Assembly: GCF_010731595.1 (NCBI RefSeq)
Contig: NZ_AP022582.1
Coordinates: 4,588,001-4,652,000, forward strand
DNA length: 64,000 nt
Direction of reading: 5' to 3'
Source: Mycobacterium seoulense
GTDB lineage: Bacteria; Actinomycetota; Actinomycetes; Mycobacteriales; Mycobacteriaceae
The position numbers were made by a program, and so were the translations under genes. The notes below the pieces were generated by a model that saw only the letters and a program-made list of their open reading frames with translations, did no database searches and was not told the DNA's origin. Shown piece after piece: positions 45,316-56,223 of this stretch (positions within the stretch are counted from its first letter, which is position 1; each line of letters begins with the position of its first letter).

Positions 45316-46506
45316 ATGCATCCCAGGCAAACTGTGGGGGTGACGGATGGCCAGCAGGCGGGCGGGGTTCGCAGCTTCCTGCCCGCCGTGGAGGGGATGC
45401 GCGCCTGCGCGGCGATGGGCGTGGTCGTCACCCACGTCGCTTTCCAGACCGGACACTCCAGCGGGGTGACGGGCCGCCTGTTCGGCCGGTTCGACCTCGC
45501 CGTGGCGGTGTTCTTCACGCTGTCGGGATTCCTGTTGTGGCGCGGCCACGCCGCGGCCGCACGCGGCCTGGCCAGGCGGCCCCACACCGGCCACTATTTG
45601 CGGTCCCGGGTGGTGCGCATCATGCCCGCCTATCTGGTGGCGGTCGTCGTGATCCTGTCGCTGCTGCCCGACGCGGATCACGCCAGCCCGACGGTGTGGC
45701 TGGCCAACCTGACACTGACCCAGATCTATGTGCCGCTCACCCTGACCGGCGGGCTGACCCAGATGTGGAGCCTCTCCGTCGAGGTGGCCTTTTATCTGGC
45801 CCTGCCCATCCTGGCGTTGTTGGCCCGCCGCTTGCCGATCGGCGCGCGGGTGCCGGCGATCGCCGCGCTGGCCGCGTTGAGCTGGGCCTGGGGCTGGGTG
45901 CCCATCCATTCCGGATCCGGCACCAATCCGCTCAACTGGCCGCCGGCCTTCTTCTCCTGGTTCGCCGCGGGCATGGTGCTGGCCGAATGGGTCCACAGCC
46001 CGGTCGGCGTGCCGCACCGGTGGGCGCGGCGCCGCGTGGTGATGGGCGTCGCCGCGGTCCTGGCCTACCTGTTGGCGGCGTCCCCGCTGGCCGGGCCCGA
46101 GGGCCTGATTCCCGGCACGGCCAGCCAGTTCGCGGTGAAGACCGCGGCGGGGTCGGTGGTGGCGTTCGCGCTGGTCGCCCCGCTGGTGCTGGACCGCGTC
46201 GACACGTCGCACCGGCTGCTGGGCAGCACCGTCATGGTGACGCTGGGGCGGTGGTCCTACGGGCTGTTCGTCTGGCACCTGGCCGCGCTGGCCATGGTGT
46301 TCCCGGTGCTCGGGACGTTCGCGTTCACCGGCCGGATGCCCGAGGTGTTGGTGTTGACGCTCATCTTCGGGTGGGCGATCGCAGCGGTCAGCTACGGGCT
46401 GGTCGAGTCACCCTGCCGGGAAGCGTTGCGGCGCTGGGAGAAACGAGAGAAGCCGGCCGAAGGCCGCGATGCGGTCGACGCCGAGGCGGACGCGATCGCG
46501 CCCTAA
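45316..46506 (+). CDS. Membrane acyltransferase 3 family protein, TmaT-like (Rv0228-like)
   Basis: 396 aa with about ten membrane segments. The family signature at the start is LPAVEGMRACAAMGVVVTHV, with the conserved His in VVTHVAFQ. A second conserved block is LSGFLLWRGHAAAARGLA followed by YLRSRVVRIMPAYL, and MWSLSVEVAFYL lies near 150. The M. smegmatis and C. glutamicum homologues (TmaT) acetylate the mycolate of trehalose monomycolate, which is required for MmpL-mediated transport. This gives a direct functional link to mmpL3, 31 kb away in this window. The specific function is assigned from synteny. It ends overlapping the convergent YbjN gene by four bases. Confidence 0.85.
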   Translation: MHPRQTVGVTDGQQAGGVRSFLPAVEGMRACAAMGVVVTHVAFQTGHSSGVTGRLFGRFDLAVAVFFTLSGFLLWRGHAAAARGLARRPHTGHYLRSRVVRIMPAYLVAVVVILSLLPDADHASPTVWLANLTLTQIYVPLTLTGGLTQMWSLSVEVAFYLALPILALLARRLPIGARVPAIAALAALSWAWGWVPIHSGSGTNPLNWPPAFFSWFAAGMVLAEWVHSPVGVPHRWARRRVVMGVAAVLAYLLAASPLAGPEGLIPGTASQFAVKTAAGSVVAFALVAPLVLDRVDTSHRLLGSTVMVTLGRWSYGLFVWHLAALAMVFPVLGTFAFTGRMPEVLVLTLIFGWAIAAVSYGLVESPCREALRRWEKREKPAEGRDAVDAEADAIAP

Positions 46507-46979
46507 CCGGTTCGGTCCATCCACTCTTCCAGCGTGTGCGCGGACGGCAGGCAGATCGCGCGCTCGATCTTCTCAAATAGGTCGGCGCCGTACTCGACGG
46601 TGGAACGGACGAGGTTGCCCAGCGCCTCGATGTGGATCCCGTCGGTCAGCAGGTAAGCGTTCTCGCCGACGACGCTGACGTGGCCCGGGCGGGCGGTCTC
46701 GCGCACAAACGCCTTCGGCCAATGGGTTTCGCGGTTCCAGTCGTTGACCAGTTCCATCAGGCGCGGCCGCTCGGCGGCGGGGTAGTAGCCGGCGGGACTG
46801 ATCGAGATCTCGAAGACGTCGCGCCGCAGGCCGTTGATCCGCAGGTTCACGTGCAGCTTGCCGCACTCGTAGCCGGGCAGCATCAGGAACTCCTCGCCGT
46901 CGTCGCTGCGAAAGAACCGCAACTGACGCGATTGCAGGTAACGGTCGATCAGGTCCGTGCTCAGCGGTTCGATCTGCAT
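46503..46979 (-). CDS. YbjN-domain protein
   Basis: 158-aa soluble protein with the YbjN/type III secretion chaperone-like fold: an N-terminal helix LIDRYLQSRQLRFFRSDD, four or five beta strands (KLHVNLRINGLRRDVFEISI), and a helix LMELVNDWNRETHWPKAFV, a hallmark segment of the family. Strands near VSVVGENAYLL and a C-terminal helix follow. Such proteins act as stability factors or regulators without enzyme activity. It follows the acid-CoA ligase on the same strand after 54 bases, and no good ribosome-binding site is seen. In M. tuberculosis a PIN-domain toxin-type gene (Rv0229c) lies at this position instead. Confidence 0.8.
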   Translation of the reverse strand: MQIEPLSTDLIDRYLQSRQLRFFRSDDGEEFLMLPGYECGKLHVNLRINGLRRDVFEISISPAGYYPAAERPRLMELVNDWNRETHWPKAFVRETARPGHVSVVGENAYLLTDGIHIEALGNLVRSTVEYGADLFEKIERAICLPSAHTLEEWMDRTG

Positions 46980-47033
46980 GGCCCGATGGTGCGGCCGCGG
47001 CCTTGGAGGATTCTTGATGCGAACGGTCGCGCG

Positions 47034-48524
47034 TCAGACCGGCTCGGCGGCCTGCAGGCGCGCGATGATCTCGGCGCGCACCGCCGACCGCCGGGCCTTG
47101 CCGGCGTCGTCGCGCAGGGGAGTGTCGACGAACTCGATGAAGTCGGTGGTGGGCGGCACCTTGTACGCGGCGAGGTGTTCGCGCAGGAACTCCTGCACGC
47201 CCTCGGCGTCCAGCGTGGCGCCGTCGGCCGTGTGCACCAGCGCGTAGGGCACCTGGCCCAGGTCGCCGGAGTTCGGGTCGGGGACGCCGACGACGAGGCA
47301 GGACAACACGTCGGGGTGCGCCGACAACGCGTTCTCGACCTCGGCGGGGTACACGTTGCGGCCGCCCACGGTGAACATGTCGACGCGGCGGTCCGACAGA
47401 TACAGGAACCCGTCGGCGTCGAAATGGCCCAGATCGCCCAGCGAATCCCAGCCGTCGCGGCTCTTCGCCGTTGCGCCGACGTAGCGGTAGGTGGGCGCGC
47501 TGCCCGCACCGGGACGCATGTAGATCTCGCCGACCACGCCGGGCGGGCAGGGGTTGCCGTCGTCGTCGAGCACCTTCATCTCCCCGGCGACCACCACGCC
47601 CACCGAGCCGCGGTGGGTCAGCCACTGGTCGCCGGAGATGAAGGTGAGTGCCTGTAATTCGGTGCCGCCGTAGAGTTCCCACACCTTCTCCGGGGCCAGC
47701 AGGTCGATCCACGCCTGCTTGACGGCCGGCGGGCAGGGCGCCCCCATATGCCAGAACCGACGGATCGACGACAGGTCATACGACCCGGGGTCGGCGTGGT
47801 AGACGGGCAGCGCCCGCTGCATGATCGTCGGCACCGTCGTCAGGAAGGTCACGCCGTGGTCGGTGATCAGCCGCAGAAACCGCTCGGGGTCGAACCGGCT
47901 CATCACGACCAGGTGATGGCGCATCAGCAGGGCGAGCGTCGCGGTGGTGAAACCCGTGTTGTGGGACAACGGGATCGGGACCAGCGTGGTGTCGCCCTCC
48001 TGCGCGCCGAGGGGATAGCCGATGGCGGCCGGAATCCGGCTGTCACCGCCGGATTCGATGAGCTTGGGCCGGCCGGTGCTGCCACCGGATCCCATCGCCT
48101 TCCAGACCGGCGAGACCGCCTCCGGCAGCGCCGCGTCTGAGTGCTCCGGCCCTGGCGTGAAACCGGCTGGAACGCTGGGCATTTGGGGATGATCGCGACC
48201 GACCAGAAGCGCGGGCGGGCGCAGCTCCAGCAGGCCCTGCAGCTCCGCGTCGGGCAACCGGGCCGACAGCGGCTGGGGCACCGCGCCCAGCTTCCAGCAC
48301 GCCACCGCGGCCTGGATCCACTCGACGGAGTTGGGCAACACCATGGTCACGTAGTCGCCGACGCCGACACCACGCTCGGCGTACGCGCGGGCCAGCCGGT
48401 TCGTCGAGGCGTCGAGCTCCGCGCGGGTGAGGGTCAGTCCGTCGCAGGTGACGGCGGGCTCGTCGGGCGCCAGCTCGGCCAGCGCCGAAATCTGGGTACC
48501 GATCGGCGGGATCGGCTCACTCAT
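47034..48524 (-). CDS. Acid-CoA ligase (ANL superfamily)
   Basis: 496 aa. The A3 loop is shortened and reads SGGSTGRPKLI, with Gly-Gly where most FadDs have Gly-Thr-Thr, as in bile-acid and aromatic-acid ligases. Other blocks: LVPIPLSHNTGFTTATLALL, YGGTELQALTFISG (A5), DGWDSLGDLGHFDADGFLYL with the catalytic Asp, DRRVDMFTVGGRNVYPAE hinge and the late lysine in DDAGKARRSAV. The ATG overlaps the end of php by eight bases, so php and this ligase are coupled. This is not found in the M. tuberculosis order. A lactone opened by the php product could be activated here (speculative). Confidence 0.87.
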   Translation of the reverse strand: MSEPIPPIGTQISALAELAPDEPAVTCDGLTLTRAELDASTNRLARAYAERGVGVGDYVTMVLPNSVEWIQAAVACWKLGAVPQPLSARLPDAELQGLLELRPPALLVGRDHPQMPSVPAGFTPGPEHSDAALPEAVSPVWKAMGSGGSTGRPKLIESGGDSRIPAAIGYPLGAQEGDTTLVPIPLSHNTGFTTATLALLMRHHLVVMSRFDPERFLRLITDHGVTFLTTVPTIMQRALPVYHADPGSYDLSSIRRFWHMGAPCPPAVKQAWIDLLAPEKVWELYGGTELQALTFISGDQWLTHRGSVGVVVAGEMKVLDDDGNPCPPGVVGEIYMRPGAGSAPTYRYVGATAKSRDGWDSLGDLGHFDADGFLYLSDRRVDMFTVGGRNVYPAEVENALSAHPDVLSCLVVGVPDPNSGDLGQVPYALVHTADGATLDAEGVQEFLREHLAAYKVPPTTDFIEFVDTPLRDDAGKARRSAVRAEIIARLQAAEPV

Positions 48525-49497
48525 ATGCGCCCTGCCGCTCGAAGATGCGGCGGGGGTTGTCGACCAGCATCGTGTGCAGTTGCTCGTCGGTCACGCCGCG
48601 CTCCTTGAGCGCGGGGATGACGTCGTTGTGGATGTGCAGGTAGTGCCAGTTGGGCGCCATCTGGGGCACGAGCTCTTCGGGCAGCGCGTCGAAGTAGCAG
48701 TTCGCGTCGTGCGAGAGCACCATCTTGTCGGCGTGGCCGCGCTCGCACATCTGCGCCACGATCTTGACCCGCTCTTCGAAGGGTGAGATCACGTCGAGGC
48801 CGAACCGGTCCATCCCGAGATACGACCCCGCGGCGATGAGTTCTTCGAGGTAGCCGATGTCGGTGCTGTCGCCGGAGTGGCCGATCACGACCCGGCTCAG
48901 GTCGACGCCCTCCTCCTCGAAGATGCGTTGCTGCTCGAGGCCGCGGCGCAGCCCGGCGTGGGTGTGCGTCGAGATGGGCACCCCGGTGCGCTTGTGCGCC
49001 TGGGCGACCGCGCGCAGCACCCGCTCGACGCCCGGGGTGATGCCGGGCTCGTCGGTGGCGCACTTGAGGATTCCGGCCTTGACGCCGGTGTCGGCAATGC
49101 CCTGCTCGATGTCGCGGACGAACATGTCGGTCATGATCTCCGGGCCGCCCAGCAACCCGCCGGGCCCCTCGTAGTGGAACCGGAACGGGATGTCGTTGTA
49201 GGTGTAAAGCCCAGTCGCCACAACGATATTCAGCTCGGTCGCCGCGGCCACCCGCGCGATGCGCGGGATGTAACGGCCCAGCCCGATCACGGTGAGGTCG
49301 ACGATGGTGTCCACACCGCGGGACTTCAACTCGTTGAGGCGGGCGACCGCGTCGGCCACCCGCTTATCCTCGTCGCCCCAGGCGTCCGGGTAGTTGAGCG
49401 CGATCTCGGTGGTCATGATGAACACGTGCTCGTGCATGAGCGTCACGCCGAGGTCGGCGGTATCGATGGGGCCGCGGGCGGTATTGAGTTCTGACAC
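48517..49497 (-). CDS. php: Phosphotriesterase-like lactonase Php
   Basis: 326 aa from GTG 49497, the same length as M. tuberculosis Php (Rv0230c). TIM-barrel metalloenzyme: His22 and His24 (HEH) of strand 1, the bridging lysine Lys145 in AGILKCATDEPG, His178 in STHTHAG, His207 in IGHSGD and Asp264 in LSHDAN form the complete binuclear site. Homologues are quorum-type lactonases with weak phosphotriesterase activity. A well-spaced promoter (49505-49532) suggests a leaderless mRNA. The acid-CoA ligase follows with an overlap. Confidence 0.93.
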   Translation of the reverse strand: MSELNTARGPIDTADLGVTLMHEHVFIMTTEIALNYPDAWGDEDKRVADAVARLNELKSRGVDTIVDLTVIGLGRYIPRIARVAAATELNIVVATGLYTYNDIPFRFHYEGPGGLLGGPEIMTDMFVRDIEQGIADTGVKAGILKCATDEPGITPGVERVLRAVAQAHKRTGVPISTHTHAGLRRGLEQQRIFEEEGVDLSRVVIGHSGDSTDIGYLEELIAAGSYLGMDRFGLDVISPFEERVKIVAQMCERGHADKMVLSHDANCYFDALPEELVPQMAPNWHYLHIHNDVIPALKERGVTDEQLHTMLVDNPRRIFERQGAYE

Positions 49498-49559: not shown

Positions 49560-50252
49560 TCAGCGGCGCGAGGGCACCGCTTCGAGCCATTCCGTCGATT
49601 CGGGACTGGCGGTGAGCAACCGCAATCCGGCACCGTCGAGTTCGCGCAGGAGCTCGTCGGCCGTCAGCACCTCGAGATGGAAGCATTGCCGCAACGTCGA
49701 CCCGTCGACGACCAACGCATATTCGCCCTCGACGAGCCCAGCGAGGTCGCTGTGGACCGTCACGCGGGCCGTCAGGTCGCCGATCGCTTTACATTCCGTC
49801 CAGCCGGCAGGTCGAGCCGCAAGATATGCCGGCGGCTTCCACTGGATGATCGCCTTGCCTGCCGGTTTCAGATGGTGCGCGACCGTAGCCAGCACCGCCC
49901 GTCGAAGCGCGACGCCCGGGTAGTGAATGAGGTTGGTCGGCAACAGGACCGCATCGAACTCCTGCGTCAGGCGCAGGTCCTCGATACGGGCGCGCACCGT
50001 GCGCGCGCACCGAACTTCGGCGAGCATGCGGTCGGAGTCGTCGACCGCGGTGACGTGGTGGCCGAGGCGGGCCAGCGGGTCGGCGATCCGTCCGGTGCCG
50101 GCACCGAGTTCCAGCACCGAGCTTCGCGGTCGAAGAAGGGCGTCGATCTGCTCGGGCTCTCCCGTCGGCGGCAGTCGGCGGTAGAGCTCGATCAGGCTTC
50201 CGTCGGCCGTGCGTTCGGTGTTCGCATCGGCTTGGCAGTGACAACACGACAT
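49560..50252 (-). CDS. SAM-dependent methyltransferase, last gene of the accessory operon
   Basis: 230 aa, ATG 50252 behind GAGGGG, 13 bases after the ATP-grasp gene. Class I fold: motif I VLELGAGTGRIADPLARL (47-64), TAVDDSDRMLAEV for the ribose hydroxyls, IEDLRLTQEFDAVLL for the adenine region and a PAGKAIIQWKPP strand. The N-terminus MSCCHCQADA has three cysteines within six residues. The family includes O- and N-methylating tailoring enzymes. Position suggests it methylates the product of the ligase or the aminoketone. Substrate unknown. Confidence 0.8.
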   Translation of the reverse strand: MSCCHCQADANTERTADGSLIELYRRLPPTGEPEQIDALLRPRSSVLELGAGTGRIADPLARLGHHVTAVDDSDRMLAEVRCARTVRARIEDLRLTQEFDAVLLPTNLIHYPGVALRRAVLATVAHHLKPAGKAIIQWKPPAYLAARPAGWTECKAIGDLTARVTVHSDLAGLVEGEYALVVDGSTLRQCFHLEVLTADELLRELDGAGLRLLTASPESTEWLEAVPSRR

Positions 50253-50265
50253 CGCGGCAATCCCC

Positions 50266-51546
50266 TCAAGCCAGCTCGTAGAAGCCTGGACCGTCGATGT
50301 AACGCAGCGTCCAGAGGTCGCGAGCCACGACTTCGCCGACCTCGTGCACCAGCCTGACGAAGATCGGGTAGGTCAGGTCGTTGGTGGTCAGCGACAGTTG
50401 TTCGCCGGGGTTCACCCGGACCCGCATGTCGTGGAAGCTGTCCAGCCCCTTGATGGCCTCCAAGCTTTGGTAGGAGGTTAGGGTGCCGCTGCGCGGGGCG
50501 ACCATGGCGGCGCCCGCAACCTGTTGGCGGAGGCGGTAGGGCCGCCCGCTGTTTTCGGCGAATTGCCCGGGTCGCGCGTAGGCGTCCACCGTCCATTCGA
50601 CCTGCGACCGCCCGGTGGCCAAGAGTGCCCCCTCGGGCAGGGTGCCGCCCGCGATTCGCGCCCCCACTTCGACCAGACATGGCCCGTCGGACGTCATCTT
50701 GATCTCGGCATGGGCCGCGCCGTGCCGGATCCCGAGGGCGTCGAGCACGGCGAACGCGTACGCAACCAGCTTGTCCTGCACTTCGCCCGTCGCCGGCAGC
50801 AGCCGCCAGGCCACCAGAAGGTCGGGGACCCCGTTTGCGTTGATGCGATACGTCTCCCAGATGTCGCACACGTGGTGGGCTCCATCTCGGCTGACCGTGT
50901 CGACGATGTATTCGGTGCCCATCAGGCATTCCTGGGCCACCACACCGTCATTGGGCTGCGACAGCACGTTTTTGCGTCCGTCGAGCCGGCGGAAGGCTTG
51001 CACGGAGTCGTCGGGGGTGTGGCACCAGGCGACACCGTCGCCGGCGGCGCTGCGCAGTGGCTTGAGGACGACCATGCCCCGAACTTCGGTATGCCAGTCG
51101 CGAAGCTGCCTTTCGGTTTCCACCAAGATCTGCCTGGCTCCCCGCAAACCTTGCTGTTTGATCCGCTCGATCATCAGATACTTGTCGCGCCGTGCGCTGC
51201 TCAGCGCGGTGCCGTTGGTCGGTGCGCCCGTGATGGGGTGGAGGGCCTCGCTGAGCGCGTCGGCCAGTTCCACTCCGGGTTCGGTGCCCGCCACAACCGC
51301 GACCGGGCGGAACGGAGACAGCGCTTGCAGCGTCGCGTGTAAGTCGCCGTGGTGCACGATGTCGACGTCGTAGGGATATCGATCCGGTTGGCCGCGTAAG
51401 GCTTCGGGCACCTCGGGGCTGCTTTGCACACGCAGCGGGGTATATCCCGCACTCAGGAAACCCTGGGCCAGTTCGGTGCCGATGGAGGCGTAGGTGTCAA
51501 CCAATACGACATGGCGCGTGGCGCCCTCGTGCACATCGCTCTTCAT
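50266..51546 (-). CDS. ATP-grasp carboxylate-amine ligase
   Basis: 426 aa from ATG 51546, one base after the MaoC stop. N-terminal Rossmann-like domain VVLVDTYASIGTELAQGF (13-30), central ATP-grasp with Lys162 in VVLKPLRSAAGDGV, GVVAQECLMGTEYIVDTVS (Glu206, Glu212), and metal-binding HAEIKMTSDGPCLVEVGAR (Glu281, Glu293). The pattern is that of amino-acid ligases such as BacD and DdaF that make an amide bond through an acyl-phosphate. A C-terminal domain of about 110 residues follows. It probably joins an amino acid or acid to the product of the upstream enzymes. No carrier protein is encoded nearby. Confidence 0.87.
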   Translation of the reverse strand: MKSDVHEGATRHVVLVDTYASIGTELAQGFLSAGYTPLRVQSSPEVPEALRGQPDRYPYDVDIVHHGDLHATLQALSPFRPVAVVAGTEPGVELADALSEALHPITGAPTNGTALSSARRDKYLMIERIKQQGLRGARQILVETERQLRDWHTEVRGMVVLKPLRSAAGDGVAWCHTPDDSVQAFRRLDGRKNVLSQPNDGVVAQECLMGTEYIVDTVSRDGAHHVCDIWETYRINANGVPDLLVAWRLLPATGEVQDKLVAYAFAVLDALGIRHGAAHAEIKMTSDGPCLVEVGARIAGGTLPEGALLATGRSQVEWTVDAYARPGQFAENSGRPYRLRQQVAGAAMVAPRSGTLTSYQSLEAIKGLDSFHDMRVRVNPGEQLSLTTNDLTYPIFVRLVHEVGEVVARDLWTLRYIDGPGFYELA

Positions 51547-51547
51547 C

Positions 51548-52072
51548 TCAGTACGCGGCCTGATCCTCGAGATCGTGCTCGCGCGTGGGCAACAGGAAGC
51601 TGCGTTCACACGTCAGGAAGAGCGTGCCGTCCGCCTTCAGTCCACGGGTGGCGCAGCTGACGATGCCCTGGTGTGCCCGGGATGCCGATAGGCGCTTACC
51701 CAGGTACTCGGTCTCGGCATAGATGGTGTCCCCGACGAACACGGGGGCGAGAAGGCGGATGTTGTCCCAGCCCAGGTTGGCAAGGCCCTTGGCGCTGGTG
51801 CTGGGAACGCTCATGCCCGAGACGATCGACAAGGTGACCAGGCTCGACACCAAAGGCCGCTTCCACTCGGTCTGTTCGCAGTAAGCGTTGTCGATGTGCA
51901 GCGGGTGCAGATTGAGTGAGAGCAACGACATCCAGACGTTGTCGGCTTCGGTGAGGGTTCGGCCCGGACGGTGCTCAACGATGACCCCGACCTCGACGTC
52001 TTCGAAGAAGAGGCCGCGCGACTCTCGCCAGCGCCGATCAGCAATCTTCTTGTAGGCACGGATCTCATCCAT
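51548..52072 (-). CDS. MaoC-family hydratase (mesaconyl/itaconyl-CoA hydratase-like)
   Basis: 174 aa from ATG 52072, which overlaps the CitE-like stop by eight bases. Hot-dog fold with the hydratase motif LNLHPLHIDNAYC (His59, Asp61). The adjoining GRTLTEADNVWMSLL and GLANLGWDNIRLLAPVFVGD segments are typical of the mesaconyl/itaconyl-CoA hydratase branch. Such enzymes add water to a C4-C5 dicarboxylyl-CoA, giving the hydroxyacyl-CoA that a CitE-type lyase cleaves. A MaoC-CitE neighbour pair also occurs at Rv2499c-Rv2498c of M. tuberculosis. The substrate here is unproven. Confidence 0.85.
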   Translation of the reverse strand: MDEIRAYKKIADRRWRESRGLFFEDVEVGVIVEHRPGRTLTEADNVWMSLLSLNLHPLHIDNAYCEQTEWKRPLVSSLVTLSIVSGMSVPSTSAKGLANLGWDNIRLLAPVFVGDTIYAETEYLGKRLSASRAHQGIVSCATRGLKADGTLFLTCERSFLLPTREHDLEDQAAY

Positions 52073-52949
52073 GGGTGATCCCGTAGCGCGGCGCCTCAAC
52101 CGCTATCGCCCGCGCCAGCAGGCGCCGCGCCGCGGCGACCATCGGCGGGCCAACCATCTGCCCGTCGAGGACACCGATCTCCCCGGATCGTTCGCGCGCC
52201 ATCTCGATGACACGGCGGGCTCGTTCCACCTCCGCAGGCAATGGCGTGAAGCCGTCATTGATCACCGGCACCTGGCGGGGATGAACCGCGGCTTTGCCGC
52301 CGAAGCCGAGTTCGCGCGACCGGTTCACATCGATCTTGAGGGCGAGATCGTCGCTCAGGTCGAAGGTGGGTGCGTCGATGGCCGGGATACCGGCTGCGGC
52401 GGCGGCCGTGACGATGCGCGACCGCGCATAGAGCAAGGGCTCCCACTCCATCGATATGCTCAGGTCGGCCGCGAAGTCGGCGGCTCCGAAGACCAGCGCC
52501 CGTACGCGTGGCGTGGCATTCGCGATCTCGTCAACCGCCGAGAGGCCGGCCGCGGTTTCGATCGTTGCCAGAAAAGCGACGTCCGCGAGCTGGTCACCCA
52601 GCATGTCTTCCAGGATGAGTAGGTCATGCGCACAATTCACCTTCGGGACCAGCAGCGCGTCGGGTCTGATGGCGCCGTAAAAGAGGGCGAGAATGTCGTG
52701 CAAACCGTCGGCGGTGCGCAGGCTGTTGATCCGCAGGGCACGAACGCAGCCCGTCGACTTCGTGTCGAACAGCCGAGACGCTACGCGACGAGCCGCTTCG
52801 CGCTGGGCGGGCGGCACCGCGTCTTCGAGATCCAGGGTGCATACGTCGGCGCCTGATTTCAGGGCAGCCCGATAGCGGCGCGGATGGACAGCGCTCGTCA
52901 TCAGCATCGTCCGAAAGACGTTATTTTGCGCCAACACTCGATTACTCAT
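52065..52949 (-). CDS. CitE-like CoA-ester lyase (HpcH/HpaI aldolase family)
   Basis: 294 aa from ATG 52949, overlapping the previous stop by ATGA. TIM-barrel lyase with DLEDAVPPAQRE (40-51), substrate-binding Arg73 in LRINSL, Mg ligands Glu131 (IETAAGL) and Asp158 (GAADFAADL), and the C-terminal GGKAAVHPRQV. These residues match CitE, malyl-CoA and citramalyl-CoA lyases. It should cleave a beta-hydroxyacyl-CoA into an acyl-CoA and a 2-oxoacid, or run in reverse. It could supply the acyl-CoA used by the alpha-oxoamine synthase encoded just upstream. Confidence 0.88.
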   Translation of the reverse strand: MSNRVLAQNNVFRTMLMTSAVHPRRYRAALKSGADVCTLDLEDAVPPAQREAARRVASRLFDTKSTGCVRALRINSLRTADGLHDILALFYGAIRPDALLVPKVNCAHDLLILEDMLGDQLADVAFLATIETAAGLSAVDEIANATPRVRALVFGAADFAADLSISMEWEPLLYARSRIVTAAAAAGIPAIDAPTFDLSDDLALKIDVNRSRELGFGGKAAVHPRQVPVINDGFTPLPAEVERARRVIEMARERSGEIGVLDGQMVGPPMVAAARRLLARAIAVEAPRYGITHG

Positions 52950-54196
52950 GCTGAAATACCGAACAGATCTTGTGATTCCGACGCCACCAATTCGCCGACG
53001 GTCTCGCAGAACCGGCGGATGTCCTCGGGGTCGTTGTCTGACCGCAGCATGATGCGCAGTCCCGCGTGGCCCATGGCGGTGACGGGAAAGAAGACCGCCG
53101 AGGTGTAGTAGCCGCGATCGAAGATTTCCCGCGACAGACCGATCGCTTTGGCGTCCTCGCCCGTCCGGATCAGCCGGATCGGGGTCAACGTGCCGGCCTG
53201 CGGGGTCGAGATCAGGCTGTCGAAGAGGGCGGCGTTGTCGCGCAGTTGTTGCTGTCGCTGTGCCAGCTCGGGTGAATTGTGCACGCGCAACGAGCCCAGG
53301 CACGCGCCGATCGTCGGCGCGTTCGCAGGCTTGGACCATGCCAGTGGGCCGCCGAAGCGCATGAGGACGTCGTAGTGCTTCTCTGGTCCCAACATGATGA
53401 CCCCGCCGCTGGCGCCGAAGGCCTTTCCGAGCGAGGCGACGATGACGGTCAGCGGGTTGAGCTGCTCGGGCATCATGGATCGCACGATTCCTTCGCCTCG
53501 TTCGCCGTACATGGACAACGAGTGGGCCTCGTCGAAAAAGAGGAACAGCCCGTAGCGGTCCTGCAACTCCATCAGCTCTTTGACCGGGGCGATGCCCCCC
53601 AGCGAGTAGGCGCCGTCGGCGACGTAGGCGACCCGCTGGTGCTTCTTGCACATGTCTTCGAGGTAGTTGAGGTCGTTGTGCGGGCAGGTGTAGACCGGAG
53701 CCTCGTCGGCGCAGATGGGCTTGACGTAGTTGAGCGAGAAGTGCGCATGCTTGTCGAACACCATGACGCGCGGTTCACCGTCGTCGGTCAAGTGCCCCGA
53801 GGCGATCAGCGGCAGCACGGCGGCGCTCGCCACCGCCGTGGAGATCGCGGAGATGCAGCGTGCCCGATACAACGCCGAGAGTCCGGTTTCGAGTTCGTCG
53901 ATGATGGAGAACCGGATCCGCAGCCGGGAGGCGGACAGCGCGAACGTCTGCTCCGAATCAATCGCCGCACGAGCGCTTTCCAGCACCCAGGGGTGGGAGT
54001 GCAGCCCGAGGTAGGAGCACGAAATCATGTTGATGAAACGGTGGCCATCGCTTTGCCGCTCCAGCCGATCGTTGCCGACGTAACGAACGCTGTTGTCCAG
54101 CAGCTTGTTGTCGGCTGCAGCCTGCCATGCGGGATTGCCCACGGCGACGGCCTTGGCGTTGTTCCGGAATCGGTGTATCCGGGGCTGTACATTCAT
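52946..54196 (-). CDS. Divergent alpha-oxoamine synthase (AONS/CqsA-like PLP enzyme)
   Basis: 416 aa from ATG 54196, eight bases after AGGAG; a TTG one codon upstream is less likely. Fold type I PLP enzyme: Asp222-Glu-Ala-His225 (FFDEAHSLSMYGERGEG), the PLP lysine Lys258 in ASLGKAFGASGG, and HAHFSLN near 150-156. These mark the alpha-oxoamine synthases that condense an amino acid with an acyl-CoA, releasing CO2 and CoA. The SGYxAN motif expected near 118 is replaced by ISTAVAS, so it is not ordinary BioF or KBL. First gene of the five-gene operon; product probably an alpha-aminoketone (inference). Confidence 0.87.
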   Translation of the reverse strand: MNVQPRIHRFRNNAKAVAVGNPAWQAAADNKLLDNSVRYVGNDRLERQSDGHRFINMISCSYLGLHSHPWVLESARAAIDSEQTFALSASRLRIRFSIIDELETGLSALYRARCISAISTAVASAAVLPLIASGHLTDDGEPRVMVFDKHAHFSLNYVKPICADEAPVYTCPHNDLNYLEDMCKKHQRVAYVADGAYSLGGIAPVKELMELQDRYGLFLFFDEAHSLSMYGERGEGIVRSMMPEQLNPLTVIVASLGKAFGASGGVIMLGPEKHYDVLMRFGGPLAWSKPANAPTIGACLGSLRVHNSPELAQRQQQLRDNAALFDSLISTPQAGTLTPIRLIRTGEDAKAIGLSREIFDRGYYTSAVFFPVTAMGHAGLRIMLRSDNDPEDIRRFCETVGELVASESQDLFGISA

Positions 54197-54525
54197 CAAC
54201 GGGTCTCCTCGAGAAGCGTCTTCGGTAACGCGGATCGCGCGTGGCTGAAGCCGTCCTCGAACGTCAATGTTTCGGAGATCCGCGACTAGCGATGGCCACC
54301 GTGGGTGTTACAAATCGCACGGTAGACAGGTCCGCGCGCTCAGGCCTCCACCAATCGGTTCGGGGGAGGAATGAATCTTCCGTCCCCTGATCGGGGGACA
54401 TGCGCGAGCGCCCCTGGAAGGTTGGCGGTTAATTTCGTCGATTCGCCAGCCGACTGTCGCCCTCACGGCCACGCTATTGGCGTACCGTCGAGCCGCGTCC
54501 TTTTCCGAGCCCCGGGAGTCCCGTC
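54197..54525. promoter_or_regulatory. Divergent regulatory region between the accessory operon and fadE4
   Basis: 329 bases without a gene. It must hold the promoters of the accessory operon (minus) and of fadE4 (plus). On the minus strand TTGACG (54267-54262) is the best -35, but no TAnnnT lies at the right distance. On the plus strand a TTAATTT is present near 54430, and GGGAG lies seven bases before the fadE4 ATG. A near-palindrome is annotated separately. Confidence 0.5.
54382..54399. promoter_or_regulatory. 18-bp near-palindrome, candidate operator upstream of fadE4
   Basis: GTCCCC-TGATCG-GGGGAC: six-base perfect arms around a centre that itself contains GATC, so only one pair in 18 bases breaks the symmetry. 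It lies about 190 bases from the accessory-operon ATG and 127 bases from the fadE4 ATG, suitable for control of either or both. Confidence 0.4.
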
Positions 54526-56223
54526 ATGTTGCTCAATCCCAACCACCTGCAACGCCAATACCCAGACCGGCGCTCGGCGGAGATCATGGCCGCGACCGTG
54601 GATTTCTTCGAATCGCGGGGCAAGGCGCGGCTGAAGGCCGACGACCACGAACGGGTCTGGTACTCCGAGTTTTTGGACCACATCGGGCGCGAGCGCATCT
54701 TCGCCTCGCTGCTGACACCGTCCGAGTACGGCGCCGGCGATTGCCGCTGGGACACCTACCGGATCAGCGAGTTCGCCGAGATCGTGGGCTTCTACGGGCT
54801 CAGCTACTGGTACCCCTTCCAGGTCACCGCGCTGGGGCTGGGCCCGATCTGGATGAGCGGCAATGAGGACGCCAAACGCAAGGCCGCCGCCCAGCTCGAG
54901 GCCGGCGAGGTGTTCGCCTTCGGACTCTCGGAGCAGACCCACGGCGCCGACGTCTACCAGACCGACATGATCCTGACGCCGTCGGAAGGGGGCTGGACCG
55001 CGAGCGGCGAGAAGTACTACATCGGCAACGCCAACGTGGCGCGGATGGTCTCGACGTTCGGCAAGATCGCCGGTTCTGACGAGTACGTGTTCTTCACCGC
55101 CGACTCCCAGCACGACCGGTACGACCTGATCAAGAACGTGGTGAACTCGCAGAACTTCGTCGCCAACTACGCGCTGCGCGACTACCCGGTCACCGAGGCC
55201 GACATCCTGCACCGGGGACCCGAGGCCTTCCACGCCGCCCTCAACACGGTCAACGTCTGCAAGTACAACCTGGGCTGGGGGGCGGTCGGCATGTGCACCC
55301 ACGCCATGTACGAGGCGGTCACGCACGCCTCCAACCGCGTCCTCTACGGCACCGTCGTCACCGACTTCAGCCACGTGCGGCGGCTGCTCACCGACGCCTA
55401 CCTGCGGCTGGTCGCGATGCGCCTGGTGTGCACCCGGGCCTGCGACTACATGCGCAGCGCGTCGGCGGACGACCGGCGCTACCTGCTGTACAGCCCGCTC
55501 ACCAAGGCCAAAGTCACCAGCGAAGGGGAGCGGGTCGTGATCGCCCTGTGGGACGTCATCGCCGCCAAGGGGGTGGAGAAGGACACCTTCTTCGAGGCCG
55601 TCACCCGCGAGATCGGTTTGCTGCCACGGCTCGAGGGCACGGTGCACATCAACATCGGGCTGCTGGCCAAATTCATGCCCAACTTCCTCTTCGCCCCCAA
55701 CAGCGAACTGCCCATCCTCGATCGGCGCGACGACGCGTCCGACGACGCGTTCCTCTTCGCCCAGGGGCCGACCGGAGGGCTGGGCAAGGTGCGCTTCCAC
55801 GACTGGCGGGCGCCGTTCGATGGCTTCGGCCACCTGCCCAACGTCGCGCTGCTGCGCAAGCAGATCGACGTGCTCGCCGACATGCTGGCCAGCGCGACCC
55901 CTGGCGCCGCGCAGCAGAAGGACGTCGACTTCGCGTTCGCCGTGGGCCAGCTCTTCGCGACGGTGCCCTATGCGCAGCTCATCCTCGAGGAGGCCGCGCT
56001 GTCGGACGTGGACGAGACGTTGATCGACGGGATCTTCGCGGTGCTGGTCCGCGACTTCAACGGCTACGCAGTGGAGCTGAGCGACAAGCCCGCCACGACG
56101 GATGAGCAGGCCCGCTTCGCGACGCGGATGATCCGCCGCCCGGTCCACGACCCCACGCGGTACGCCCAGATCTGGAAGGAGCACATCCTTCCCCTCAACG
56201 GCGCGTACCAGATGCGGCCATAG
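54526..56223 (+). CDS. fadE4: Acyl-CoA dehydrogenase FadE4
   Basis: 565 aa (M. tuberculosis FadE4, Rv0231, 568 aa). Long-form acyl-CoA dehydrogenase. Blocks in order: YGAGDCRWDTYRISEFAEIV near 68-87, the FAD-binding FAFGLSEQTHGADV near 131-144, GGWTASGEKYYIGNANVA, the LGWGAVGMCTHAMYEAVTHA helix near 250-270, and the NRVLYGTVVTDFSHVRRLLT flavin-contact region. A C-terminal extension of about 120 residues distinguishes it from FadE3. A substrate larger than short-chain acyl-CoA is plausible. In M. tuberculosis it directly follows php; here the accessory operon has been inserted between them. Confidence 0.93.
   Translation: MLLNPNHLQRQYPDRRSAEIMAATVDFFESRGKARLKADDHERVWYSEFLDHIGRERIFASLLTPSEYGAGDCRWDTYRISEFAEIVGFYGLSYWYPFQVTALGLGPIWMSGNEDAKRKAAAQLEAGEVFAFGLSEQTHGADVYQTDMILTPSEGGWTASGEKYYIGNANVARMVSTFGKIAGSDEYVFFTADSQHDRYDLIKNVVNSQNFVANYALRDYPVTEADILHRGPEAFHAALNTVNVCKYNLGWGAVGMCTHAMYEAVTHASNRVLYGTVVTDFSHVRRLLTDAYLRLVAMRLVCTRACDYMRSASADDRRYLLYSPLTKAKVTSEGERVVIALWDVIAAKGVEKDTFFEAVTREIGLLPRLEGTVHINIGLLAKFMPNFLFAPNSELPILDRRDDASDDAFLFAQGPTGGLGKVRFHDWRAPFDGFGHLPNVALLRKQIDVLADMLASATPGAAQQKDVDFAFAVGQLFATVPYAQLILEEAALSDVDETLIDGIFAVLVRDFNGYAVELSDKPATTDEQARFATRMIRRPVHDPTRYAQIWKEHILPLNGAYQMRP

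Follow-up and report, generated by a model that had tools for sequence, protein, structure and literature searches.

A five-gene operon of Mycobacterium seoulense with a ketomemicin-like core, a different ATP-grasp ligase and a methyltransferase

We analysed a window of 64,000 nucleotides from Mycobacterium seoulense, corresponding to positions 4,588,001-4,652,000 of the 5.53 Mb genome, and found in the interval between php and fadE4 five tightly packed minus-strand genes for an alpha-oxoamine synthase (AONS), a CitE-type lyase, a MaoC dehydratase, an ATP-grasp ligase and a methyltransferase. By analogy with the ketomemicin (ktm) genes, these probably form a short biosynthetic operon that follows ketomemicin logic without a nonribosomal peptide synthetase (NRPS) or polyketide synthase (PKS), a reading to which we give a probability of about 0.72. 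It builds on the gene set itself, on the homology of the first three enzymes to the KtmA-KtmC set, and on the conservation and co-inheritance of the five genes. No description of the operon was found among the titles and abstract openings that searches of an open-licence literature collection returned.

Enzyme families of the five gene products

The first gene (52946-54196; 416 amino acids) encodes the AONS, a pyridoxal phosphate (PLP)-type amino acid C-acyltransferase of the KtmB type. It scored 514.7 bits against NF005697 (PRK07505), above the curated cut-off of 342, and its closest solved relative was Alb29, an alpha-oxoamine synthase of Streptomyces albogriseolus (PDB 8XHA, E 1.5e-86) that is named in PMC11906848. 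The second gene (52065-52949; 294 amino acids) encodes a KtmA-type coenzyme A (CoA)-ester lyase/aldolase of the HpcH/HpaI (CitE-type) family, with 107 bits against PF03328. Its best NCBIfam model was RipC_Ccl (250.2 bits, below the cut-off of 375) and its closest solved relative 3qll, labelled citrate lyase, which we take to be RipC of Yersinia. The third gene (51548-52072; 174 amino acids) encodes a single-domain MaoC dehydratase/hydratase of the KtmC type that matches PF01575 and PF19315 and, best among the NCBIfam models, RipB_Ich (208.2 bits, below the cut-off of 340).

The ATP-grasp protein (50266-51546; 426 amino acids; analysed as 50269-51549 or 50266-51549, with one extra residue at its start) is of the L-amino acid ligase kind. 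It reached 327.6 bits against NF005543 (PRK07206; cut-off 302), carries PF13535 as its only Pfam domain at E <= 0.001, and has the L-amino acid ligase 30vh as its closest solved relative (E 2.8e-48). The family is shared with the dapdiamide synthase DdaF and other L-amino acid ligases, but the score against the DdaF model (199.8 bits) is far below the cut-off of 840. The last gene (49560-50252; 230 amino acids) encodes a class I S-adenosylmethionine (SAM)-dependent methyltransferase, with 49.4 bits against PF13649. Its nearest NCBIfam model is that of the daptide methyltransferase, an N-methylating enzyme (69.7 bits, below the cut-off of 175), which gives a weak hint that the window enzyme may also methylate nitrogen. 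Two genomic contexts were seen for relatives of the methyltransferase, one annotated without informative genes and the other unannotated.

A preliminary description of the window had given the five open reading frames as joined by a 4-base ATGA overlap, an 8-base overlap, a 1-base gap and a 13-base gap, and this agrees with our reading of the junctions. It had also stated that the catalytic residues are kept, which was borne out for three enzymes by alignment with homologues. The catalytic residues H152, D222, H225, K258 and R381 of the synthase were invariant among 18 homologues, R73, E131 and D158 of the lyase were invariant among 12, and the hydratase retained the motif N54-x-H-P-L-H59.

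Comparison with the ketomemicin gene set

According to the available text of PMC11943689, the ktm set consists of an aldolase (KtmA), a PLP amino acid C-acyltransferase (KtmB), a dehydratase (KtmC), an ATP-grasp ligase (KtmD), an amidinotransferase (KtmE) and a dehydrogenase (KtmF), and heterologous expression of the cluster of Salinispora tropica CNB-440 gave ketomemicin. The earlier statement that no described pathway with the gene set of the operon was known is wrong for the core, as four of the six ktm gene types recur in the operon, three of them as clear homologues (PMC11943689).

For the comparison we used as ktm candidates the proteins of one locus (L176, genome G1258), assigned by family content in place of a named ktm sequence. 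This locus holds all six ktm gene families. A PGM1-type ATP-grasp protein, a zinc-type dehydrogenase, an HpcH/HpaI lyase, a synthase and a MaoC protein are encoded in a row on its plus strand, and an amidinotransferase on the minus strand; the solved relatives of the latter are inosamine-phosphate and glycine amidinotransferases, and it gave no Pfam or NCBIfam match at E <= 0.001. The window synthase is 50% identical over 400 amino acids to the KtmB candidate, both being above the NF005697 cut-off, whereas the identities to the KtmA and KtmC candidates are 45% over 267 amino acids for CitE and 57% over 169 amino acids for MaoC. The L176 enzymes also miss the cut-offs of the RipC and RipB models (243 and 184 bits).

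The two sets differ in gene order, which is AONS-CitE-MaoC in the window and CitE-AONS-MaoC in L176. Both include an ATP-grasp ligase, but the ligases belong to different families, with PF13535 in the window and PF18604 and PF18105 in the KtmD candidate; the window ligase may be a functional analogue of KtmD. The operon is free of NRPS and PKS genes, and a methyltransferase takes the place of the ktm amidinotransferase. Judged from these families, the mycobacterial operon appears to join the already known ketomemicin core to a new finish, composed of another ligase family and a methyltransferase. As a guide to the amino acid used by the synthase, we rejected the residue aligned with V79 of ThAOS, which is Ala or Val in mycobacteria and Thr in the KtmB candidate and was too variable. 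Besides L176, genome G1258 carries a second cluster (L175, G1258:C1:518000-532000) with the order synthase, CitE, ornithine cyclodeaminase (OCD) and MaoC.

Proposed pathway and significance

The ketomemicin pathway makes a mimic of the peptide bond in which CO-CH2 (ketomethylene) replaces CO-NH. Its core reportedly yields a pseudodipeptide, as Kawata is said to have described in 2017 together with the details of the reactions. The reactions, substrates and product proposed here for the window operon are modelled on this precedent. The CitE/KtmA-type enzyme, working in the synthetic direction, would join an acyl-CoA unit and a 2-oxo acid to a 2-substituted malyl-CoA, from which the MaoC/KtmC-type dehydratase would remove water to give a substituted fumaryl- or itaconyl-type CoA. 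The KtmB-type synthase would then condense this acyl-CoA with an amino acid, with loss of CO2, to a 5-amino-4-oxo acid, that is a dipeptide mimic with the ketomethylene group. Subsequently, the ATP-grasp ligase would attach an amino acid, or a partner of a similar kind, to this unit, and the methyltransferase would cap the product, perhaps on nitrogen. The scheme of the preliminary description, with lyase and hydratase shaping an acyl-CoA, the synthase condensing it, the ligase forming an amide and the methyltransferase finishing, fits the ketomemicin precedent.

The pathway would be expected to yield a small pseudo-di- or tripeptide, methylated and with a ketomethylene group. This would most plausibly act as a peptidase-directed inhibitor, by analogy with the arphamenines and with one of the ketomemicins that were tested. 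Because the operon has no reductase, either a reductase elsewhere in the genome may take part or the double bond may be kept in the product. The latter would lead to an unsaturated keto pseudopeptide, in which the C=C formed by the dehydratase is retained, followed by coupling through the L-amino acid ligase and methylation; this variant is possible, although rather unlikely in our estimate.

Ketomethylene pseudopeptides are protease-stable mimics of peptides, and few pathways to them have been described. If the reading is correct, a five-gene version in slow-growing mycobacteria, including Mycobacterium gastri, adds a small-molecule pathway without NRPS and PKS. If the product is unsaturated, these bacteria would produce peptide mimics of a new, electrophilic and possibly covalent class, which some species have retained and their near relatives have lost. 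A search that demands all six ktm homologues, as did the survey published in PMC11943689, would miss the five-gene operon. Additionally, the on-off presence of the operon beside fadE4 and php provides natural pairs of near relatives for the comparison of metabolites.

Distribution, conservation and history in the genus

A search of 396 genomes of the genus recovered the synthase at E <= 1e-60 in 10, the source genome among them. All five genes were present in one order in each of these ten carriers, so that the genes travel together throughout. The operon lies between fadE4 and php in nine of them. In the tenth (G650, L088), a stretch of 15 kb showed neither flank and no tRNA that might mark an insertion site, and the operon proteins are more distant (62-79%). 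About 4 kb upstream of the operon, G650 has a fragment of a Mu-like prophage, possibly a trace of transfer. The nearest named relatives at the locus, both carriers, are Mycobacterium sp. UM_CSW (L043 of the named collection) and M. gastri DSM 43505 (L044).

For the empty site we sampled 35 non-carrier genomes of the genus, of which 31 match php, and examined 30 loci. The start of fadE4 was 98-132 bases from that of php in nine of these, one of which (L116) shows a 120-base gap, with php matching in two frames. The other 21 showed no fadE4 in the stretch examined, which extended no more than about 1.5 kb beside php. The synthase, ligase and methyltransferase were absent from all 30 php loci.

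The operon is under purifying selection. The median ratio of nonsynonymous to synonymous substitution rates (dN/dS) for nine sequences was 0.09 for MaoC, 0.16 for AONS, 0.18 for the ATP-grasp ligase, 0.22 for CitE and 0.25 for the methyltransferase, and for eight sequences 0.11 for php and 0.15 for fadE4. Mean dS, compared in the same eight sequences (G650, which has no flanks, raises the operon means), was 0.56-0.79 for the operon genes, compared with 0.50 for php and 0.52 for fadE4. As the operon dS is not below that of the flanks, operon and flanks have been diverging for about the same length of time. A tree of php from 10 carriers and 27 non-carriers showed the two kinds interleaved within one group of 19 (100/99), and its starred branches force at least five changes of carrier state, with 33 of 500 label shuffles needing as few.

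The preliminary description had spoken of genes inserted between php and fadE4. The position between these flanks holds, but the insertion event itself is uncertain given the interleaving in the php tree and the operon dS, and we do not regard a recent insertion as supported. An old presence with repeated loss suits the data at least as well; repeated loss from an old presence and exchange within the group may both be considered as histories.

An argument for foreign origin could also be drawn from the content of guanine plus cytosine (GC), for which the preliminary description had sampled three 60-base lines. Their values are true (41.7, 53.3 and 56.7%) but unrepresentative, as the mean of all 77 such lines of the operon is 65.3% and just two of them are below 55%. 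The GC content is 65.2% for the operon, 66.8% for php, 66.7% for fadE4 and 69.2% for the window, which rules out the argument as stated and leaves a mild difference in GC at third codon positions (GC3). GC3 is 0.78-0.84 in the operon genes and 0.93-0.94 in php and fadE4, and was below that of both flanks in the window and in all seven further carriers compared with both; equally low values occur in 3 to 10 of the 43 other open reading frames that a script picked in the window.

The synthase, CitE and MaoC genes outside mycobacteria

We searched a collection of named genomes with an alignment of the synthase and examined 30 loci, with up to 10 kb on each side. CitE and MaoC were both present in the synthase locus in 24 of the 30, two of these being mycobacterial. 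Hosts of this trio include Streptomyces, Kitasatospora, Nocardia, Myxococcus, Pseudoduganella, Duganella, Pseudomonas, Serratia and a metagenome-assembled genome of Aminicenantes, and the trio was also found on a plasmid of Rhizobium lusitanum. In Pseudoduganella it has an ornithine-cyclodeaminase-family protein as a neighbour. The window-type ATP-grasp ligase occurred among the 30 loci only in the two mycobacterial ones and in L050 (31% identity), and the window-type methyltransferase was confined to the mycobacterial pair.

Of the named loci from outside the mycobacteria (28 in all), the Myxococcus-type clusters L047 and L065, which encode AONS, CitE, MaoC and a medium-chain dehydrogenase/reductase (MDR), gave the best identities to the window CitE (46%) and MaoC (64%, tied with L053). 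These clusters share the gene order AONS-CitE-MaoC with the window, but differ by the zinc-type dehydrogenase after the trio, by a long open reading frame before it, whose first residues led us to read it as an NRPS, and by giving no match to the window-type ATP-grasp ligase or methyltransferase.

Several other arrangements of the trio were observed. A cluster of MaoC, CitE and synthase recurs in L033 and in L055-L062 (the latter from Streptomyces and a Nocardia), and looks like a natural product cluster. Locus L033 has further genes for isopropylmalate synthase-like, AurF N-oxygenase, aminopeptidase P-like and tRNA-synthetase-like proteins, and L055 has a 2-oxoglutarate (2OG)-Fe oxygenase alongside the trio. 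The Serratia locus L063 shows a run of synthase, CitE, acetaldehyde dehydrogenase and DmpG-like aldolase with MaoC at the end, and its dehydrogenase/aldolase pair may supply an acyl-CoA or a 2-oxo acid. Similarly, synthase, CitE and MaoC in another Serratia locus (L064) are spaced as in L063. Two Streptomyces plasmids (L041, L042) carry another CitE-MaoC gene cluster, a conserved set of ketoacyl synthase (KAS) III, acyl carrier protein (ACP), CitE, MaoC and GNAT genes with a DmpG aldolase and an acylating acetaldehyde dehydrogenase, and no annotated PLP synthase. We rejected a ligase-methyltransferase pair on a further Streptomyces plasmid (L037), whose adjoining methyltransferase is weakly similar (E 0.008), as well as CitE matches on plasmids of Azospirillum and two of Streptomyces, which have no annotated synthase alongside.

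Weighing of the reading and alternative explanations

A number of findings weigh against the reading of the operon as a ketomemicin-like pathway. In a BLASTP comparison, the window ligase did not match the PGM1-type KtmD candidate significantly (E 0.91). No amidinotransferase was found among the five genes, php and fadE4, to which the search was confined, and the operon contains no dehydrogenase or reductase, the rest of the genome not having been searched for one. Because of these three differences from KtmD, KtmE and KtmF, we do not file the operon as a ketomemicin cluster. In a tree of 47 synthases, the nine mycobacterial ones form one clade (100/100), whose supported neighbour is a Holophagales protein (98/96) with no CitE and no MaoC in its locus (2.7 kb before and 10 kb after the synthase). 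The KtmB candidate and its kin form a separate group (99/96), the deeper forks being weak. As the mycobacterial clade lies outside the KtmB group, the window set is related to ktm by its core and its logic and is not nested within it.

The synthase family is also seen on its own. Six of the 30 named synthase loci lack CitE, MaoC or both, with CitE and no MaoC in L050 and L070 (the latter a contig of 6.2 kb) and neither gene in L045, L046, L066 and L071; examples of the family without CitE or MaoC are found on plasmids of Pantoea and Rhizobium leguminosarum. In the genus of G389, which we took for Streptomyces by similarity to named loci, matches to the synthase family at E <= 1e-45 were found in 25 of 295 genomes, at 26 places in all, and just 12 of these places have CitE within 1.5 kb of the synthase. 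The existence of loci without CitE or MaoC means that the synthase family is employed in other contexts too.

The MaoC family was searched in 397 genomes of the order with a query alignment built from trio clusters, and the scores split in two, with 17 places at E <= 1e-73 and the remainder at 7.7e-58 or weaker, a split that the choice of query favours. For 16 of the 17 best-class places, AONS and CitE were present within the sequence examined, at distances of up to about 8 kb; the remaining place (L187) is on a 9.4 kb contig that ends about 1 kb away. The two classes were first read with unequal flanks. With equal flanks of 1.5 kb, AONS was found in 6 of 11 best-class and 0 of 15 next-class MaoC loci, and CitE in 4 of the 15 next-class loci. 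The best-scoring class may mark clusters of like logic elsewhere.

Among other explanations, we considered a 5-aminolevulinate-like antimetabolite, for which the synthase would join itaconyl- or mesaconyl-CoA with glycine and the ligase and methyltransferase would mask a compound aimed at haem synthesis. A substituted aminolevulinate is compatible with the chemistry of the three core enzymes, and there is a weak match of the synthase to the aminolevulinate synthase model (80 bits, cut-off 338.55), far exceeded by that to PRK07505. The first three steps would equal those of the ketomemicin-like pathway, and only target and use would differ; as the homologous ktm core reportedly gives a pseudodipeptide, we consider an antimetabolite of this kind improbable. 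Catabolic handling of itaconate or citramalate would make CitE a citramalyl-CoA lyase (RipC), MaoC an itaconyl-CoA hydratase (RipB) and the other genes passengers. The best NCBIfam models of both enzymes and the solved CitE relative 3qll point this way, and the two families are common to the RipABC and Ict-Ich-Ccl systems. However, both scores are below the curated cut-offs, as are those of the ktm enzymes, no CoA transferase (RipA) is present among the five genes, php and fadE4, and the genes are linked to a synthase in several phyla and to the ligase in the window. With all five genes together in every carrier, a catabolic role seems very improbable.

The operon could also be a decaying remnant without present function. 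Its patchy distribution with the changes forced on the php tree, the low GC3 relative to the flanks and an in-frame TAA in the synthase of one carrier (G485) would agree with decay, and the stop codon is a further point against a working pathway. The other nine synthase matches are free of internal stops, and the median dN/dS of the five genes is 0.09-0.25, against 0.11 and 0.15 for php and fadE4, which leaves decay highly improbable. The ketomemicin-like pathway is the reading we prefer.

Flanking and neighbouring genes

The flanks named in the preliminary description were found at 48517-49497 (php, minus strand, phosphotriesterase family protein, PF02126 with 456 bits) and at 54526-56223 (fadE4, plus strand, acyl-CoA dehydrogenase, PF00441 with 49 bits). 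According to the preliminary description, the two genes are adjacent in M. tuberculosis (Rv0230c-Rv0231). A divergent intergenic region of 329 bases (54197-54525) separates the operon from fadE4 and, by its position, is the presumed site of the operon promoter. Downstream of php, the window carries acyl-CoA synthetase-like and YbjN-like genes (46503-48524). This pair was not found beside php in G029 (L032), M. gastri (L044) and G570 (L085), where an acyltransferase gene is the next beside php among the genes searched.

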